Notes under the pieces: model-generated
Told to the model about the DNA's origin: nothing
Seen by the model: the letters and a program-made list of their open reading frames with translations, nothing else
The model's database searches: none
Source: Acidobacteriota bacterium
GTDB lineage: Bacteria; Acidobacteriota; Terriglobia; Acidiferrales; UBA7541
Length of the DNA stretch: 64,000 nt
Direction: 5' to 3'
NCBI GenBank assembly: GCA_003224055.1
Contig: QHYE01000033.1
Location: 1-64,000, forward strand
Translations under genes and position numbers: made by a program
Part shown: positions 32,766 through 40,778 of the stretch, piece by piece
Layout: each line of letters starts with the position of its first letter
Position numbering within the stretch: the first letter of the stretch is position 1

Positions 32766-33788
32766 CTACTTTTCTGAGAGGAGCACCTGTTGCGGCATGT
32801 CTGGAACAGGATGCAGCGTCGTTTTCACAAACCCAGCGTTGCAGAACATTTTCTCATATTCCGCAAGCGTATACGCGTCGCCGGCGTCGGTATTAGCGAG
32901 CATGATGAGGCTGAACGCGGCGGACATCGGCGGCGTCACGCGGTCTTCGTTTGGCACGAATTCCAAAGTGATGGCCTTGCCGCCGGGACGCAGCGCTGCA
33001 TGAACACGGCGCATTAGCTTCTCGCAAGTGGGAATGTCAAAGTGGTGAAAAATGTTCGTCAGTAACACCACATCGTAGCCCTCGCCGAGGTCTGCCTCAA
33101 ACGCGCTTCCTGGCCGGAAAGATACGCGATCGGCCACGCCGGCTGCCGCCGCATTTTCCTTCGCGACTGCGAGTACTGGCGCCCAGTCCACCGCCGTGAC
33201 TTGCGCATTCGGATTCAGCTTCGCGATGCTAATTCCAAACATCCCGTGTCCTGCCGCGATGTCCAACACCTTGCAGACTTTTCCTTCTTTTGCGCCCGAA
33301 AGCTCTGCGATGAACCCGGCCGACACGGTCGTCAACGGAGCCATGCTCCTTGCAAACGTCACCCAGAAATCGTCGTTCGGCTTGGTATTGTCTCCTTGCG
33401 CAACGGTTGTTCCGCCCTTCTTCACCGATTCCGTCAAGGCGTCGAAATTTTTCTTGTGAGTTTCGCTCGCGAGGAAATTCGCCAGCGTCCCCATATAAGC
33501 AGGCGAATGCCGGTTCAAGAAAATTGCGGACTCCTGCGTGAGCGCGAAGCGATCCTCGGTCTTGGTCAGGAAGCCCTGGATCGTCAGGTAGTCGCACAGA
33601 ATACGCACGCCTCGTTCCGCTGCGTTCACTCGTTGCGCAATGACGTTCGTCCGGTTTGCGCCGTCAGCGATCGCCGTGAAGATGTCCAGCTCAATCGCGG
33701 CTTTAAGGGCAGCCGAGTTTTGAAACGCGGTAAGCACGCCGAAGATGTGCTCCGGCGAGGGCCGTTGGGACTGGGATGGTGTTGCCAT
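32766..33788 (-). CDS. SAM-dependent methyltransferase (O-methyltransferase-like)
   Basis: N-terminal winged-helix-like region; KVLDIAAGHGMFGISIAKLNPNAQVTAVDW and VLLTNIFHHFD...GGKAITLEFVP. Confidence 0.88.
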   Translation of the reverse strand: MATPSQSQRPSPEHIFGVLTAFQNSAALKAAIELDIFTAIADGANRTNVIAQRVNAAERGVRILCDYLTIQGFLTKTEDRFALTQESAIFLNRHSPAYMGTLANFLASETHKKNFDALTESVKKGGTTVAQGDNTKPNDDFWVTFARSMAPLTTVSAGFIAELSGAKEGKVCKVLDIAAGHGMFGISIAKLNPNAQVTAVDWAPVLAVAKENAAAAGVADRVSFRPGSAFEADLGEGYDVVLLTNIFHHFDIPTCEKLMRRVHAALRPGGKAITLEFVPNEDRVTPPMSAAFSLIMLANTDAGDAYTLAEYEKMFCNAGFVKTTLHPVPDMPQQVLLSEK

Positions 33789-33948: not shown

Positions 33949-34680
33949 ATGAAACGCGAATACCACCGCTGGCACTCTCCGCGGCTCGGCATCGAGCTCG
34001 GTGTGGTCGTCTATGGCCATTACGGTCCGCCGCTGCTGGGCTTTCCCACCAGTGCTGGCGACGAGATGGAGCTCGAAGGCCAGAGTATGGTCGGGGCCCT
34101 CGCAGATTTCATTGACGCTGGAAGAGTAAAATTCTTCACCATCAATTCCATCAATGGCCTCAGCTTTTACAATAAAGGTGCGCATCCTCTTCATCGCAGC
34201 TACGTCCAGTCCGTTTTCGACTCCTATCTGCGTGAAGAAGTCGTTCCCTTCATCTGGAACAACTGCCAATCGCCAGGCATCGTCATCTCGACCATGGGCG
34301 CTTCCTTCGGCGCGTACCATGCTGCAAATTCGCTATTCAAGCACCCCGATGTCATCAAGCGCTGCTTTGCCATGTCCGGCGTTTACGACGTGAAAAACTT
34401 CATGGACGGCATGTACGACGACAATTTTTATTTCAACAACCCCGTCGATTACCTCGCCAATATGAGCGATCCCTGGTTCTACGAACAGATTGCTTCGTGC
34501 GACATTCACATCACCACCGGCACGGGCCAGTGGGAAAACAGCGGGCCAACCTACCGCCTCTCGGAAATTCTTTCCAGCAAGGGAATCCGCCACTCGCTCG
34601 ATAACTGGGGCCCCCAGGGCGGCCACGACTGGCCTTATTGGAAACACCAGATGCGCGAATACCTCTCCCAGCTTTTCTGA
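33949..34680 (+). CDS. putative esterase, alpha/beta-hydrolase (esterase D-like)
   Basis: ISTMGASFGAYHAANSLFKHPDVIKRCFAMSGVYD: nucleophile elbow GASFG; C-terminal GGHDWPYW. Confidence 0.8.
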   Translation: MKREYHRWHSPRLGIELGVVVYGHYGPPLLGFPTSAGDEMELEGQSMVGALADFIDAGRVKFFTINSINGLSFYNKGAHPLHRSYVQSVFDSYLREEVVPFIWNNCQSPGIVISTMGASFGAYHAANSLFKHPDVIKRCFAMSGVYDVKNFMDGMYDDNFYFNNPVDYLANMSDPWFYEQIASCDIHITTGTGQWENSGPTYRLSEILSSKGIRHSLDNWGPQGGHDWPYWKHQMREYLSQLF

Positions 34681-34723
34681 ATGGAATCGTGCTTTGAGTT
34701 AGTTCCCGCGGACAAGGAGGACT

Positions 34724-35749
34724 TCAGGCCAGGCCGAGGTGCTCGAGCTGGTAGTGGCCCTTTTCGATGATCTGATCTTCATCGATCCAGACATCGCAGT
34801 TGCGGGTCAGCACATCCACATGCGTCTTGGATTTCCAGTCCGCATGGGTCTGGCTGCCGTAGGGGTCGCCAAAGGCGATGTGCACTCCAGGAAACTTTTC
34901 GTCCTGAAGTAATATGCCAATCATCTCGGACAAGCCGAGGTTGGTTCCAAAAGCAAGCTCGCCGACGCGGTCACTGTTTTCATCCGAGTGGCAGTATTCC
35001 CAGAACTCTTTTTCCAAATCCTTGCGCGCGCATTCGACTCCAACGAGCCGCGCGCCTTCGATTTCCAGCACCAGCGGCGTCGTCCGCAAATCGCCGTACT
35101 TGCCGTTGAAATGGTCGCCCGCCGTGGCGTCGCAAACGAACCTGCCGTCCACGGTCGCCGGCGTTGTGAAGACTTCTCCCGCGGGCAAGTTTGACCAGTA
35201 GCGCGGGCTGATCAGTCCGCTGGTCTTCACCCAATCAAGCCCGCGATCGAAGTGCGCCGCAATCTCGGTTCCGGCTTCGGTTTTTACCGTGAGCGTTTCC
35301 GCGCGAAGCATCCGCTCGCGGAGTTTGTCGCTCAGCCGGTCCACCATGCGGTAGTCCGCGCGCATTCCTTGCTGCATGATCTGCGGCGTTACTCCGACCA
35401 TGTGCGCGTAACGGATCTGCCGCCGTTCGACTACTCGCACGATGGCCATGCGCGCGGCCAGCTCGCCCGGCTGCGGTGACATGCACAGTACGCCGACGTC
35501 GGCGGTCTCGAGCGCCTGCAAAACATCGGGAGGCGCAACGGCCATCGGCCGCGGGCCAAAATCTTCCAGCAACAGCCCCGTGTATAAAGCCTTTTGGTCT
35601 TCCAGCGCGGCAGCGATGCTGGCTGCCACGGCGCGGCTCGCCTCATCGGCGATCAATGCCACATGTTCGCCGGGACGCACCGCCAGGCAGGTTTCCACCG
35701 CGTTGTGCGCGCCAGGCATCAATTCTGTTTGGCGAGGTCCAAAGTTCAT
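34724..35749 (-). CDS. M29-type aminopeptidase-like protein
   Basis: ETCLAVRPGEHVALIAD...VFTTPATVDGRFVCDATAGDHF...LGLSEMIGILLQDEKFPGVHIAFGDPYGSQTHADWKSKTHVDVL. Confidence 0.72.
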   Translation of the reverse strand: MNFGPRQTELMPGAHNAVETCLAVRPGEHVALIADEASRAVAASIAAALEDQKALYTGLLLEDFGPRPMAVAPPDVLQALETADVGVLCMSPQPGELAARMAIVRVVERRQIRYAHMVGVTPQIMQQGMRADYRMVDRLSDKLRERMLRAETLTVKTEAGTEIAAHFDRGLDWVKTSGLISPRYWSNLPAGEVFTTPATVDGRFVCDATAGDHFNGKYGDLRTTPLVLEIEGARLVGVECARKDLEKEFWEYCHSDENSDRVGELAFGTNLGLSEMIGILLQDEKFPGVHIAFGDPYGSQTHADWKSKTHVDVLTRNCDVWIDEDQIIEKGHYQLEHLGLA

Positions 35750-35813
35750 CGTATTAATTCTACTTGAATCAGCCAGATTTTCTAGCGCCGAGGTTCTTGT
35801 TTGGTTCTATTGC

Positions 35814-37238
35814 TCAACTGGCCGAAAGGCGGGCTTCCAATCCATCGGCTGCCGAGCTGCGTGGGGAAACTCGAAACGCGGGCACTTGGCCGCCGCCGCT
35901 GGTGACATTCGCGAGGCCGGTGGCGCTGAGGCGCGTCAGAAAGCCGCACAGTTTTCCGCGGAACAAGTAAGGCGCGAAGTCCACCAGCATGTCCCGGTAG
36001 TGCACCTGGCCGACGTCCGTGGTGAACGGAAAAACCTCGCGGCGGATCGGAATGCGTTCCTGCGCGACCCACACGCCATTTTTGGCCGTCAGCGCGCGCT
36101 CGATGGCCTCGTCCCACGCGTTTTCGCCGGTCTCCCAGCCAAGCGTCACGCCGGAACCGCCATACTCATCGCTCGGTTTCAGCACCAGGTTTTCGCGTTC
36201 CTTGCGGATAAACGCGAGCAACTCCACCTGTTGCCCGTAATGCGCCGTCTTGACGTCCGCGACGACACGTGTCCAGGGAATGTGATTCTTGATGAGTTCG
36301 CGTTCGCTGAGCGAGAAAAGCGCGCCGTTCTGTTCATCCGTCAGCACCGCGAAAAAAGCCTTTACGTGCGGAATCTTGCAGCGGAAGTTGTTCGCCACGC
36401 ACACCGCATTGGCCGAGTAGGCCTTTACCAGCGGCGCGCATTCGGCCGGCTTTGTAACGATGTCGTTGATCAGCACGCGACGGTAGACGAGATCGATCAC
36501 TTTGTCCTGCGCCACCAGCTTTTTGCCGTCGAATTCAAGTTCTCGTGGATCGGCGACGAGCGTGGGCACGCCCATTCGTTCGAAACGTTCCTGAAGAATC
36601 TCGAATTCGCTCCACGTGGGCACGCCTTCCCAATCCACGATCGCGATCTGCGGCGCCGCAGACGAACCGCCCCAGTCCTGGTAACTCGCCAGCAGCGCGT
36701 CAAGAAGTCTTGCACTCAGCGGGTAGCTATAGACCTCGTACCGCTGCGAAAACTTTCCCATGACGGGGAGTTCGCGAAAAATCTCCGCCAGGCTTTCCGC
36801 ATAGCCGGCGCCCGCAGGCGATTCGCCGTTGTATTCAGCGAACTTCAGCGAATCCGGAAGCAAAAACGCATCGAGCCGCGATGCCGTGCTGGCCGGCCCG
36901 TAGCCGGTGTGTATCCGCGCGAGCCGTTCCTCTTCGGGCCGCAGATGCAATTGGGCAAAAAGATGCTTGTCGTCGAGCGCTGCTGCAACTATGCGCTCGC
37001 CGATTTCAGCGATCGTTTCGGCGACCGTTCGAACGCGCTCCTCATCTTCCGGCGAAAGAAAAAACGGGCGCAGGAAGGGGCAGTGGACGCGGTCGCCAAA
37101 GGTGAGCTTGGCCTTGCGCATCCGCTTGAACAAATCTTGAGGGAGCGCCGGCACTCGCAGGAGTGTCGCCTTCAGAATTTCGCTCCATTCCTCCTGGGGC
37201 GTCGGAGGCGTCGCCGAAGGTGTGGCCGCGCTTGTCAT
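35814..37238 (-). CDS. circularly permuted ATP-grasp-like protein
   Basis: 474 aa; FAEYNGESPAGAGYAESLAEIF...LVLKPSDEYGGSGVTLGWETGENAWDEAIERALTAKNGVWVAQERI. Confidence 0.75.
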   Translation of the reverse strand: MTSAATPSATPPTPQEEWSEILKATLLRVPALPQDLFKRMRKAKLTFGDRVHCPFLRPFFLSPEDEERVRTVAETIAEIGERIVAAALDDKHLFAQLHLRPEEERLARIHTGYGPASTASRLDAFLLPDSLKFAEYNGESPAGAGYAESLAEIFRELPVMGKFSQRYEVYSYPLSARLLDALLASYQDWGGSSAAPQIAIVDWEGVPTWSEFEILQERFERMGVPTLVADPRELEFDGKKLVAQDKVIDLVYRRVLINDIVTKPAECAPLVKAYSANAVCVANNFRCKIPHVKAFFAVLTDEQNGALFSLSERELIKNHIPWTRVVADVKTAHYGQQVELLAFIRKERENLVLKPSDEYGGSGVTLGWETGENAWDEAIERALTAKNGVWVAQERIPIRREVFPFTTDVGQVHYRDMLVDFAPYLFRGKLCGFLTRLSATGLANVTSGGGQVPAFRVSPRSSAADGLEARLSAS

Positions 37239-38311
37239 TTTGTTGTCGTGCCAGATGATCCAGCTGGGCGCGTGGCGGTTGCCGGCGCAGGTTGAGTCTT
37301 CGCCGCTGGCACGGATGGCCCGCCGGCCGACTGTCCTGCTGCTGCGCTCTTCGGCGCTCCCGTGAATCCAGCCGCCGAGCCGATTCCCAGCATCTCCTCC
37401 CAGCGCGGCCAGGGGTTTGAGGCTTTGCCGTTCACCGCGCGGTCGACGACCAGCCGCGCCATCTTTTCCACCACAATCTCAAAATAAAATTCCGTGATCC
37501 GGTCCCGCTCGAAATCCGGGGCCGGATTCAAAAAATCAATCGCATAAGGCACGCCGTCTTTCACGGCGAACTCAATCGTGTTCATCTCGTAGCCAAGAGC
37601 CTGGTTAATTGTCTGCGCGTCTTTGACGACGCGCGTCCCAAGCTCCGCCGTCAAGTAATTGTGGTCCACCAGGTACTTGCGTTCTTTCGGGTCGTAATGC
37701 ACCGGCAAAATATCCATCTTCCCGAACGTGAAACAGCGCACGTATTGCGTGAAGTCGATGAATTCCTGTAGCGTCATGCAGTACGGAGAAGTCTTGTCGT
37801 AAGCCGCGAGCAGTTCCTCTTTGTTGTTCACTTTGTAGACGTGCTTCCAGCCCCCGCCGGAAAACGGCTTCAGGATCGCCGGCCGCCCCACATAATCCAG
37901 CAATCCGTCCCAATCCATTGGATATTCCAGGTTGTGGAGCGATTCGCTGTTGATATCCACGTCGCTCGGATAACCCTTCTGCGGCAGCAAAATTGTTTTT
38001 GGAATGGCAATTCCCAGCTTCGAGGCAACGGAGTAATTGAAGTATTTATCGTCGGCCGTCCACCAGAACGGATTGTTGATGACGTACGTCCCTTGCAGCA
38101 CCGCGTGCTTCAGGTAGCCGCGGTAGTATTCCACCTCATGCGAAATGCGGTCCACGATCACGCTGTATCGCGACGGCTCCCCCATGCGTGTACCGCCGAG
38201 CTTCACGAATTCCGCGGCCACGCCCTCCTTCGCTCCCATCTGATTGACTCGCGCAATGAACGCCGGAGGAAAGCTGTATTCCCGCCCGCAAAGAAGGCCA
38301 ACCTTTTTCAT
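37235..38311 (-). CDS. ATP-grasp ligase (RimK/glutathione synthetase-like)
   Basis: KHAVLQGTYVINNPFWWTADDKYFNYSVASKLGIAIPKTILLPQ; GRPAILKPFSGGGWKHVYKV; low-complexity Ala/Pro/Gly tail. 4-bp ATGA overlap with the next gene. Confidence 0.8.
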   Translation of the reverse strand: MKKVGLLCGREYSFPPAFIARVNQMGAKEGVAAEFVKLGGTRMGEPSRYSVIVDRISHEVEYYRGYLKHAVLQGTYVINNPFWWTADDKYFNYSVASKLGIAIPKTILLPQKGYPSDVDINSESLHNLEYPMDWDGLLDYVGRPAILKPFSGGGWKHVYKVNNKEELLAAYDKTSPYCMTLQEFIDFTQYVRCFTFGKMDILPVHYDPKERKYLVDHNYLTAELGTRVVKDAQTINQALGYEMNTIEFAVKDGVPYAIDFLNPAPDFERDRITEFYFEIVVEKMARLVVDRAVNGKASNPWPRWEEMLGIGSAAGFTGAPKSAAAGQSAGGPSVPAAKTQPAPATATRPAGSSGTTTK

Positions 38312-38361
38312 GTTTGTGCTCCTGTAAGGGCCTTGTAGGACTGCCTTGCTCGTTCTTGACT

Positions 38362-39498
38362 TCAATTCACCGCGTGCGCGGAAGAAGTCCGCGGATGGGT
38401 TACGCCGCCCCGCGTTTCCGCAACCAGATGGCGCACCACGGCTTTCATATCTCCCGTTTCCTTGTACACGCGCAACTGCCGGTCCGCGCTTGTGCCTTCA
38501 TTCATGATGGTATGAACATATTCGACTGCGCCGCGGCTTCCCAGGTCATCCACCACGTCATCCACGAATTCCAGCAGCTCGGAAATCAGCTGTCGCATCG
38601 GCACTTCCGCTTCTTTCCCGAAATCGATGAGTTTTCCTTCGATTCCGTATCGTGCCGCCCGCCATTTGTTTTCCTCGATTAACGCGCGCCGGTAAAGTCG
38701 CCAACTCATGTTGGCCTGGTACAGCCGGTGCAGTTTCACAATGATTGCCTGCGTCAGCGCCGCGATAGCCACCGCCTCCTCGACCTTCGTTGACACGTCG
38801 AACATCCGGAATTCCAGCGTGCCGAACATCGGATGCGGCCGCACGTCCCACCAGATCTTTTTGCCGTTATCAATGCAATTCAGCTTCACAAGCAGATTCA
38901 CGAAATTTTCGTAGGCGCTCCACGATTCGAATTGTTCCGGCACGCCCGTTCGCGGGAACCGCCGGAATACCGTCGTTCGAAACGACTTCAGCCCCGTGTT
39001 TCGCCCCATCCAGAAAGGGGAGCTCGTCGAGAGCGCCAGCAAGTGCGGGAGGAAATAGCGCACACCGTTCATCAAGTCGATGGTGGTCTGCTTATCCGGC
39101 ATCGCCACGTGCACATGCATCCCGAAGATCAGCAGCGACCTCGCCAGTTGTCCCATTTCTTCGATGATGTGCTGGTAGCGTTCACCCGGAGAAATCACTT
39201 GGTCGATCCAGCTCGAAAAAGGATGGGTGCCGGCGGCCGCCACTTGCAGTCCCGCGCGCTCGGCCGCCGCTACCAATTCGCCGCGCGTCCGGTGCATTTC
39301 GATGCGCAGTTCGCTGACGTTTTCGCAGATGCGCGTACCGGTCTCCACAATGGATTGGTGAAGTTCGTTTTTCACCTGTTCCGCGATGTCCGCGGAAACC
39401 TCGGAGACGATTTGGCTGACGTGCGAACGAAGCTCGCACGTTGCAGGATCTATGATTTGAAATTCTTCCTCGACGCCGATGGTAAAGCGGTGAGCCAT
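38362..39498 (-). CDS. GCS2-family carboxylate-amine ligase (YbdK-like)
   Basis: MAHRFTIGVEEEFQIIDPATCELRS...HPFSSWIDQVISPGERYQHIIEEMGQLARSLLIFGMHVHVAMPD. Confidence 0.92.
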   Translation of the reverse strand: MAHRFTIGVEEEFQIIDPATCELRSHVSQIVSEVSADIAEQVKNELHQSIVETGTRICENVSELRIEMHRTRGELVAAAERAGLQVAAAGTHPFSSWIDQVISPGERYQHIIEEMGQLARSLLIFGMHVHVAMPDKQTTIDLMNGVRYFLPHLLALSTSSPFWMGRNTGLKSFRTTVFRRFPRTGVPEQFESWSAYENFVNLLVKLNCIDNGKKIWWDVRPHPMFGTLEFRMFDVSTKVEEAVAIAALTQAIIVKLHRLYQANMSWRLYRRALIEENKWRAARYGIEGKLIDFGKEAEVPMRQLISELLEFVDDVVDDLGSRGAVEYVHTIMNEGTSADRQLRVYKETGDMKAVVRHLVAETRGGVTHPRTSSAHAVN

Positions 39499-39665
39499 GG
39501 AAGGGCCCTCTGGACACCTGGTCGTGTTGGGGACTTCAATCCCCGTATCATACCCTGCCAACCAGCCAATTTGCACCTGCTGGGAGGCCTCCGAACGGAG
39601 CCGCAACCAGGACGTGTCAAATTGGCCCTGGACGCTACCCCCGTTCGCTTGCCAGACTCCTTCGC

Positions 39666-40778
39666 ATGCAAATCAAGCCCTTTCGAATCGAACAGTATTT
39701 CGGCAAGTACGAATTCACTGCCAGGTATCTGCTCTCCAGTTCCGACGCCGAGTCCCGCACCATCAAGGAACTCCTCGACCTCGAGCCGGGAGCCCACGAG
39801 CGTCTCCTCGAACACTGGTGCGGCTACACCGAATCTCCGGGTGCTCCCTGGCTGCGCGAAGCTATCGCCGCCATCTACCAACAAATCAAGTCCGGCGACG
39901 TTCTGGTCCTGGCCGCCGCCGAAGAAGGGATTTTCGTGCTTTATCACGCGCTCGTAGGACCAGGTGATCATGTGATCGTCGAGACGCCGTGTTACGAGAG
40001 CGGCCTCGAGCTCGCCCGCAGCACCGGTGCGCAAGTCAGCGAGTGGCGCCGCACTTTCGAAAGTGGCTGGGCCCACGATGTTGCCGCTCTTGAAAAGCTC
40101 ATCCAACCGAACACCAAAGTCATCTACATCAATACGCCGCACAATCCCACCGGACTCTTGATGCCGGCGCCTGTCTTTCGACAAGTCCTTGCACTCGCCG
40201 CCAGCCGCAACATCATCCTCTTTTCTGACGAGGTCTACCGCGAGCTCGAGCACGATCCCGCCACGCGCCTTCCCGCTGCCTGCGAAGGGTACGAACGCGG
40301 CGTCAGCCTCGGCTCCATGAGCAAGACGTACGGCCTCCCCGGATTGCGTCTCGGATGGCTCGCCAGCCGCGATCCAGAAATCATTCGGCGCTGCCTGGAA
40401 TTCAAGTACTACACCACCATCTGCAGCAGCGCCCCGAGCGAATTTCTTACCGCGCTGGCCCTGCGCCATCGTGAGGTTCTCGTGCAGCGTAATTTGCAAA
40501 TCGTCTTGGGCAATCTGCGCCTTCTCGATGCCTTCATTCAGCAACGCCCGCATTGGTTCGATTGGGTGAAACCCAACGCCGGCCCGATCGGCTTTGCGCA
40601 TTTCAAGCCCGAGCGCGATGTGCTCGGCTTCTGCGAAGAAGTGGTCTGCGACTCCGGCGTCCTGCTGCTTCCGGGCACTGTTTATGAGCAGCCGCGCCAC
40701 ATTCGCTTCGGATTCGGGCGCAAAAATATGCCCGAATCCCTGGCGCAGTTTGGCGCCTGCCTCGATGCTCATTCTTGA
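39666..40778 (+). CDS. class I/II PLP-dependent aminotransferase
   Basis: YINTPHNPTGLLM...FSDEVYRELE...SLGSMSKTYGLPGLRLGWLAS. Confidence 0.92.
   Translation: MQIKPFRIEQYFGKYEFTARYLLSSSDAESRTIKELLDLEPGAHERLLEHWCGYTESPGAPWLREAIAAIYQQIKSGDVLVLAAAEEGIFVLYHALVGPGDHVIVETPCYESGLELARSTGAQVSEWRRTFESGWAHDVAALEKLIQPNTKVIYINTPHNPTGLLMPAPVFRQVLALAASRNIILFSDEVYRELEHDPATRLPAACEGYERGVSLGSMSKTYGLPGLRLGWLASRDPEIIRRCLEFKYYTTICSSAPSEFLTALALRHREVLVQRNLQIVLGNLRLLDAFIQQRPHWFDWVKPNAGPIGFAHFKPERDVLGFCEEVVCDSGVLLLPGTVYEQPRHIRFGFGRKNMPESLAQFGACLDAHS

Follow-up and report, generated by a model that had tools for sequence, protein, structure and literature searches.

A 64,000-nucleotide stretch of an Acidobacteriota genome (GCA_003224055.1, contig QHYE01000033.1, positions 1 to 64,000; hereafter the window) carries five adjoining genes whose products are assigned to three families of ATP-dependent amide ligase and two families of hydrolase (Table 1). 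The genome spans 4.5 Mb, with the window on its contig C133, and is kin to gp2 or Candidatus Acidoferrum-type genomes recovered from metagenomes. The locus was singled out by an earlier reading of the DNA (the original prediction), which described four open reading frames in series on the minus strand and one converging from the plus strand. All of the coordinates were confirmed to the base. The sequence also contained the predicted spacings, namely a 50-bp gap between GCS2 and AG, a 64-bp gap between CPAG and M29, and a 4-bp ATGA shared by the AG stop and the CPAG start, which likely couples the translation of these two genes. M29 and EST converge, with 43 bp between their ends, and no sign of decay is apparent across the five genes.

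Table 1. Features of the ligase and hydrolase locus (positions in the window)
Feature	Position	Strand	Basis
GCS2: YbdK-family carboxylate-amine ligase, 378 aa, predicted first ligase	38362-39498	minus	PF04107, PRK13515.1, identity to YbdK, conserved residues
AG: putative ATP-grasp amide ligase, RimK/LysX/Ddl fold, 358 aa	37235-38311	minus	weak TIGR00768 match, invariant motifs, AlphaFold model and fold matches
CPAG: putative circularly permuted ATP-grasp ligase, glutathione-synthetase/Gss fold, 474 aa	35814-37238	minus	weak CP_ATPgrasp_2 match, AlphaFold model and fold matches, residues aligned with Gss
M29: M29-family metallopeptidase-like protein, 341 aa, predicted processing or turnover	34724-35749	minus	PF02073, invariant residues, AmpS match
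EST: alpha/beta-hydrolase, PF00756 esterase family, 243 aa, convergent	33949-34680	plus	PF00756, invariant S119 and H226, co-occurrence with AG
ATGA overlap of AG stop and CPAG start	37235-37238	minus	sequence
Presumed shared promoter region of ligase operon and divergent aminotransferase gene	39499-39665	minus	alignment of nine gp2 loci

GCS2 matched the full length of Pfam domain PF04107 (213 bits; cut-off 21) and the NCBIfam equivalog PRK13515.1 (533 bits; cut-off 371). It shares 30% identity with Escherichia coli YbdK across 349 residues, and the catalytic residues of the family are conserved in 20 sequences. These features point to a YbdK-family carboxylate-amine ligase with predicted gamma-glutamyl activity. 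YbdK itself has weak gamma-glutamyl-cysteine ligase activity.

The other two putative ligases, searched as single sequences, both scored under Pfam cut-offs. AG matched TIGR00768 weakly (31 bits; cut-off 143), and it falls below the cut-offs of the curated RimK, LysX and Ddl families. The AlphaFold model of AG (pLDDT 81.8, with a C-terminal tail disordered from about residue 315) was matched by Foldseek to D-Ala-D-Ala ligase, RimK, ArgX/LysX and graspetide cyclases, with E values from about 1e-11 to 4e-13; the RimK matches include structures with and without the ribosomal protein substrate, and the cyclases are MdnC and AMdnB. Residues K89, K148, R192, E247, D259 and N262 and a GGGW loop, which together make up the ATP-grasp motifs, are invariant in 33 sequences, so that AG combines the ATP-grasp fold with the residues for ATP and Mg2+. 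Judged from the model, AG probably works like the RimK, LysX and Ddl ligases, yet it is not a member of the RimK family. A search for AG among plasmids and viral contigs gave no match, and AG is therefore not obvious cargo of mobile elements.

CPAG matched CP_ATPgrasp_2 weakly. Its AlphaFold model (pLDDT 90.6) matched the glutathione synthetases of human (the best match, E 4.7e-18), yeast and plant, as well as structure 3n6x, YjfC/YgiC, E. coli Gss and the fungal ligase Cp1B (E 9e-15). A MAFFT alignment placed CPAG residues R121, D123, E135, N137 and K354, all invariant in 23 sequences, on R316, D318, E330, N332 and K533 of Gss, which are active-site residues of that enzyme. A comparison of CPAG with the single E. 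coli Gss sequence by hhalign was not significant, and the proposed correspondence of residues rests on the MAFFT alignment together with the fold match. CPAG is accordingly best described as a probable permuted ATP-grasp enzyme of the glutathione-synthetase/Gss type, its predicted catalytic residues intact. The original prediction would have been undermined by missing ATP-binding residues; these and the catalytic residues were found to be intact.

The hydrolases were assigned by their domains. M29 scored 34.8 bits against PF02073 (cut-off 27), and its presumed metal residues E192, E264, H290, Y297, H310 and D312 are invariant in 23 sequences; in an alignment with the peptidase AmpS, E192, E264 and H290 fall on matching residues. 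Peptidase activity is not certain, because NicX, a dioxygenase with the M29 fold, scores better. EST matched PF00756 with 38.4 bits (cut-off 22), and its nucleophile serine S119 and catalytic histidine H226 are invariant in 19 sequences. One of the PF00756 structures that EST matched is an S-formylglutathione hydrolase.

Conservation of the locus was assessed by scanning with AG as the query, which gave 80 loci from other genomes onto which the five proteins were mapped; three principal layouts emerged. The complete order GCS2-AG-CPAG-M29-EST, with the same relative strands (four on plus, EST opposite), was present in 35 loci, and because so many outside loci share both order and strands, the five genes are a real and widely conserved unit rather than a chance cluster. 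Twelve loci of the Terriglobales type have EST, AG, GCS2 and M29 in that order on one strand, three of the Blastocatellia type have AG, CPAG and GCS2 on the plus strand, and three from Chloroflexota have EST and AG only, likewise on plus; the other 27 contain only part of the set, in many cases on short contigs. The clustering thus extends beyond the window, across classes and into a second phylum, as the original prediction required of relatives. Synteny in gp2 loci also extends to the wider surroundings (aminotransferase, CSD protein, GlgC, enolase, methyltransferase and DinB); Vicinamibacteria-type, Terriglobales and Chloroflexota loci keep the module among varying neighbors. The five families show correlated pairwise identities from locus to locus (Spearman 0.71-0.91), a result that common descent would itself produce and that is no strong evidence.

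Of 340 good-quality acidobacterial genomes, 122 carry AG, as do 76 of 190 genera, counting a divergent tier near E 1e-45, and the distribution of AG is patchy even inside one genus. Acidobacterial genomes with strong AG matches (45) were compared with genomes lacking them (32), all 77 being at least 90% complete. EST was present in 43 of the 45 and in two of the 32, GCS2 in 39 and one, CPAG in 25 and two, and M29 in 17 and none. A further protein of about 390 aa, CP13, was encoded in 22 of the AG-positive genomes and in none of the others, and it was found in 19 of the 20 AG-positive genomes without CPAG; either CPAG or CP13 was present in 44 of 45 against two of 32. Fisher values ranged from 1e-16 (EST) to 3e-5 (M29) and are descriptive only, as kinship is ignored. 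In four genomes (G404, G123, G276 and G314), members of the set are widely separated or located on separate contigs, and all four core types are retained. The search in Chloroflexota covered the six genomes behind the loci; three of these (the genomes of loci L091-L093) have EST and AG in one locus and CPAG, GCS2 and M29 in a second, so that all five genes are kept. Co-occurrence that persists when the genes are dispersed or split argues for a joint function beyond an inherited neighborhood. The five-gene unit of the original prediction therefore held as a linked set and had to be redrawn in its membership: AG, GCS2, the esterase and one or other permuted ATP-grasp enzyme are its steadiest members, and M29 is exchangeable.

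The gene for CP13 (c13) lies after M29 in Terriglobales-type loci. Its profile resembles that of CPAG weakly (probability 22%, E 9e-4), and this similarity, a KP...AGLG loop and the position of the gene suggest that CP13 is also a permuted ATP-grasp enzyme. The slot of M29 is occupied in four loci (L066, L072, L083 and L118) by another protein, c31, which lies between GCS2 and CP13 in L129 and after GCS2 in L151. This protein gave no match in Pfam; its invariant CH[ST]FG and HHPE motifs, read as a cysteine and a His-Glu pair, would fit a class-I glutamine-amidotransferase-like hydrolase, in which case M29 would be one of at least two hydrolases able to fill its slot. Replacement of CPAG by CP13 and of M29 by c31 in the same slots points to conserved chemistry. 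Beside the ligase module of two loci (L118, 8904-11613; L151, 13985-15517), c31 precedes an ATP-grasp protein that has a PGM1_C domain, and in some Vicinamibacteria-type loci EST is followed by a further ATP-grasp protein (c16) and another PF00756 esterase (c15). A divergent, second-tier AG occurs in a different cluster in L113 (5544-10435) and in L114, with an enterochelin-esterase-like PF00756 protein and an S51-like peptidase, and L113 adds another ATP-grasp protein. The theme common to these clusters is ATP-dependent ligases with an alpha/beta hydrolase and an amide hydrolase.

Computation established the presence, conservation and co-occurrence of these genes and the folds and conserved catalytic residues of their products, and the design of ligases with hydrolases and the functional linkage of the set are well supported. 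We consider it probable, at roughly 60%, that the products of the locus are the enzymes of a non-ribosomal amide-ligase pathway yielding a small metabolite, either of gamma-glutamyl type or short and peptide-like. This reading is favored because three amide-ligase families with intact catalytic residues share one operon, and because the folds of AG and CPAG match those of ligases acting on amino acids and peptides. We infer the substrates and the order of steps as follows. GCS2 would use ATP to activate a carboxylate, probably the gamma-carboxylate of glutamate, and couple it to an amino acid or amine. AG and CPAG would then each convert a free carboxylate of the intermediate to an acyl phosphate and join a further amino acid or amine to it, to give up to three amide bonds in total. 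Finally, M29 (or the glutamine-amidotransferase-like hydrolase in relatives) and EST may trim, activate or recycle the product. The original prediction was thus supported in part, in its functional linkage of ligases and hydrolases; the small-peptide or gamma-glutamyl product, and the processing or turnover roles that it gave the peptidase and esterase, we still infer. Several points weigh against the proposed pathway. AG and CPAG were assigned by fold and lack a curated family match, and the carboxylate substrate of GCS2 could be other than glutamate. The co-occurrence counts for AG ignore shared ancestry, and the syntenic flanks of gp2 loci make gene order there weak evidence. Finally, six of the 45 AG-positive genomes are without GCS2, so the first ligase is dispensable or different in them.

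The similarity of AG to RimK, LysX and ArgX raises the alternative of protein modification, in which a RimK-like AG would attach an amino acid, glutamate or another, to a protein, the tag would be lengthened or capped by GCS2 and CPAG, and M29 and EST would take it off. LysX and ArgX do modify a carrier protein, and a peptidase and an esterase would suit a reversible tag. Among the mapped loci, however, no gene for a carrier or target protein is conserved in the module, and GCS2, glutathione synthetase and Gss are generally known to act on small molecules, as does Cp1B (PMC12568646); protein modification is unlikely, though it deserves to be kept in mind. It is quite unlikely that the product is a glutathione analogue, with GCS2 making gamma-Glu-Cys or a related dipeptide, CPAG completing a low-molecular-weight thiol and EST acting like an S-formylglutathione hydrolase. 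The activity of YbdK, the position of human glutathione synthetase as the best fold match of CPAG and the structural match of EST agree with such a route, as does the lack of GshB: a search of the host genome for PF02955 gave no match. Yet the genome encodes BshC (C35, 18304-19416; E 1.3e-87), so that the host probably makes bacillithiol, which would serve as its thiol, and AG, the most constant member of the set, would be superfluous for a tripeptide. The patchy distribution within a genus is also unlike that of a housekeeping thiol. The absence of GshB, the presence of BshC and this patchiness together make glutathione itself an unlikely product.

The remaining alternatives fared worse. That the genes encode independent enzymes joined solely by inherited gene order agrees with the synteny of the gp2 flanks, but the module persists in Vicinamibacteria-type, Terriglobales and Chloroflexota loci while the flanks differ, and the genome-level co-occurrence holds where the genes are dispersed, so we regard this as very unlikely. 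Modification of a ribosomal peptide, with AG as a graspetide-type cyclase acting on a precursor, is suggested by the matches to MdnC and AMdnB and is the least credible of the explanations considered. The gaps of 50, 64 and 43 bp leave no room for a precursor gene, and no conserved small open reading frame was found beside AG at the locus. Relatives share little of the upstream sequence apart from a -10-like element, and the mapped loci contain no C39 transporter or similar partner.

The proposed amide-ligase pathway has relatives among known systems. Iyer, Abhiman, Burroughs and Aravind, in Mol BioSyst in 2009, reportedly predicted amidoligase neighborhoods in which GCS2, ATP-grasp and permuted ATP-grasp enzymes are mixed with peptidases to make small peptides or tags. 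The mix of ligases and peptidase is the same; the CP13 and c31 slot exchanges and the genome-level co-occurrence are results of the present analysis. Glutathione and glutathionylspermidine synthesis (GshA-type GCS2, eukaryotic GSS and Gss) shares with the module the GCS2 family, the permuted ATP-grasp fold and the R-D-E-N-K residues of Gss. The module differs in its third ligase of RimK/Ddl fold and in the lack of the Gss amidase domain, and its host in the thiol genes described above. RimK, LysX/ArgX and the D-Ala-D-Ala ligases have the fold and ATP-grasp motifs of AG in common, at about 11-18% identity, and the module is without a LysW or RpsF partner. In the biosynthesis of fungal E-64, which proceeds without a non-ribosomal peptide synthetase (NRPS), stand-alone ligases including the ATP-grasp enzyme Cp1B and Cp1D build a small pseudopeptide (PMC12568646). 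The likeness lies in the successive stand-alone ligases and in the match of the CPAG model to Cp1B; the module has GCS2 and hydrolases instead of the epoxysuccinate-forming oxygenase and the ANL ligase. A search of open full-text literature, with most subscription papers outside its scope, found no paper on this locus or gene set. Amidoligase neighborhoods of this kind were reportedly already predicted in 2009, and there is a fair chance that the pathway and its product are undescribed.

Upstream of GCS2, an alignment of nine gp2 loci revealed an invariant, -10-like GTATGAT about 50 nt before the start codon, amid an otherwise diverged region. In a scan of the region for consensus promoters and terminators, sites were no commoner than by chance and none was significant, and a scan against Rfam gave no match. 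The divergent gene (39666-40778, plus strand) encodes a pyridoxal phosphate-dependent aminotransferase that resembles PRK07324 and, less closely, capreomycidine synthase and GntC. Both this gene and that of a methyltransferase (32766-33788) accompany the module only in gp2 and were set aside as members. One gp2 acidobacterial locus with acidobacterial synteny (L044) is on a contig titled Betaproteobacteria, a record that is probably misnamed. A SerB-like protein and a response regulator (n51 and n52) adjoin the Chloroflexota CPAG-GCS2-M29 locus; they were seen only there and were likewise set aside.

Few soil bacteria are commoner than Acidobacteriota, and little is known of the specialized metabolism of this phylum. 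Presence of the module in about a third of the sampled genomes, with intact active sites, suggests that the metabolite is of some importance to its hosts. We tentatively propose, at nearly even odds, that the set represents an undescribed pathway of Acidobacteriota and Chloroflexota in which three NRPS-free ligases act in succession to make small gamma-glutamyl or peptide-amide metabolites of a new class. On this view, some lineages would have exchanged one ligase and one hydrolase for enzymes that are distant or unrelated but share the chemistry. Gene-cluster finders readily overlook NRPS-free ligase pathways, and ligases of this sort are useful as biocatalysts for amide-bond formation. The pattern of co-occurrence defines a set of enzymes that can be tested in one pot.

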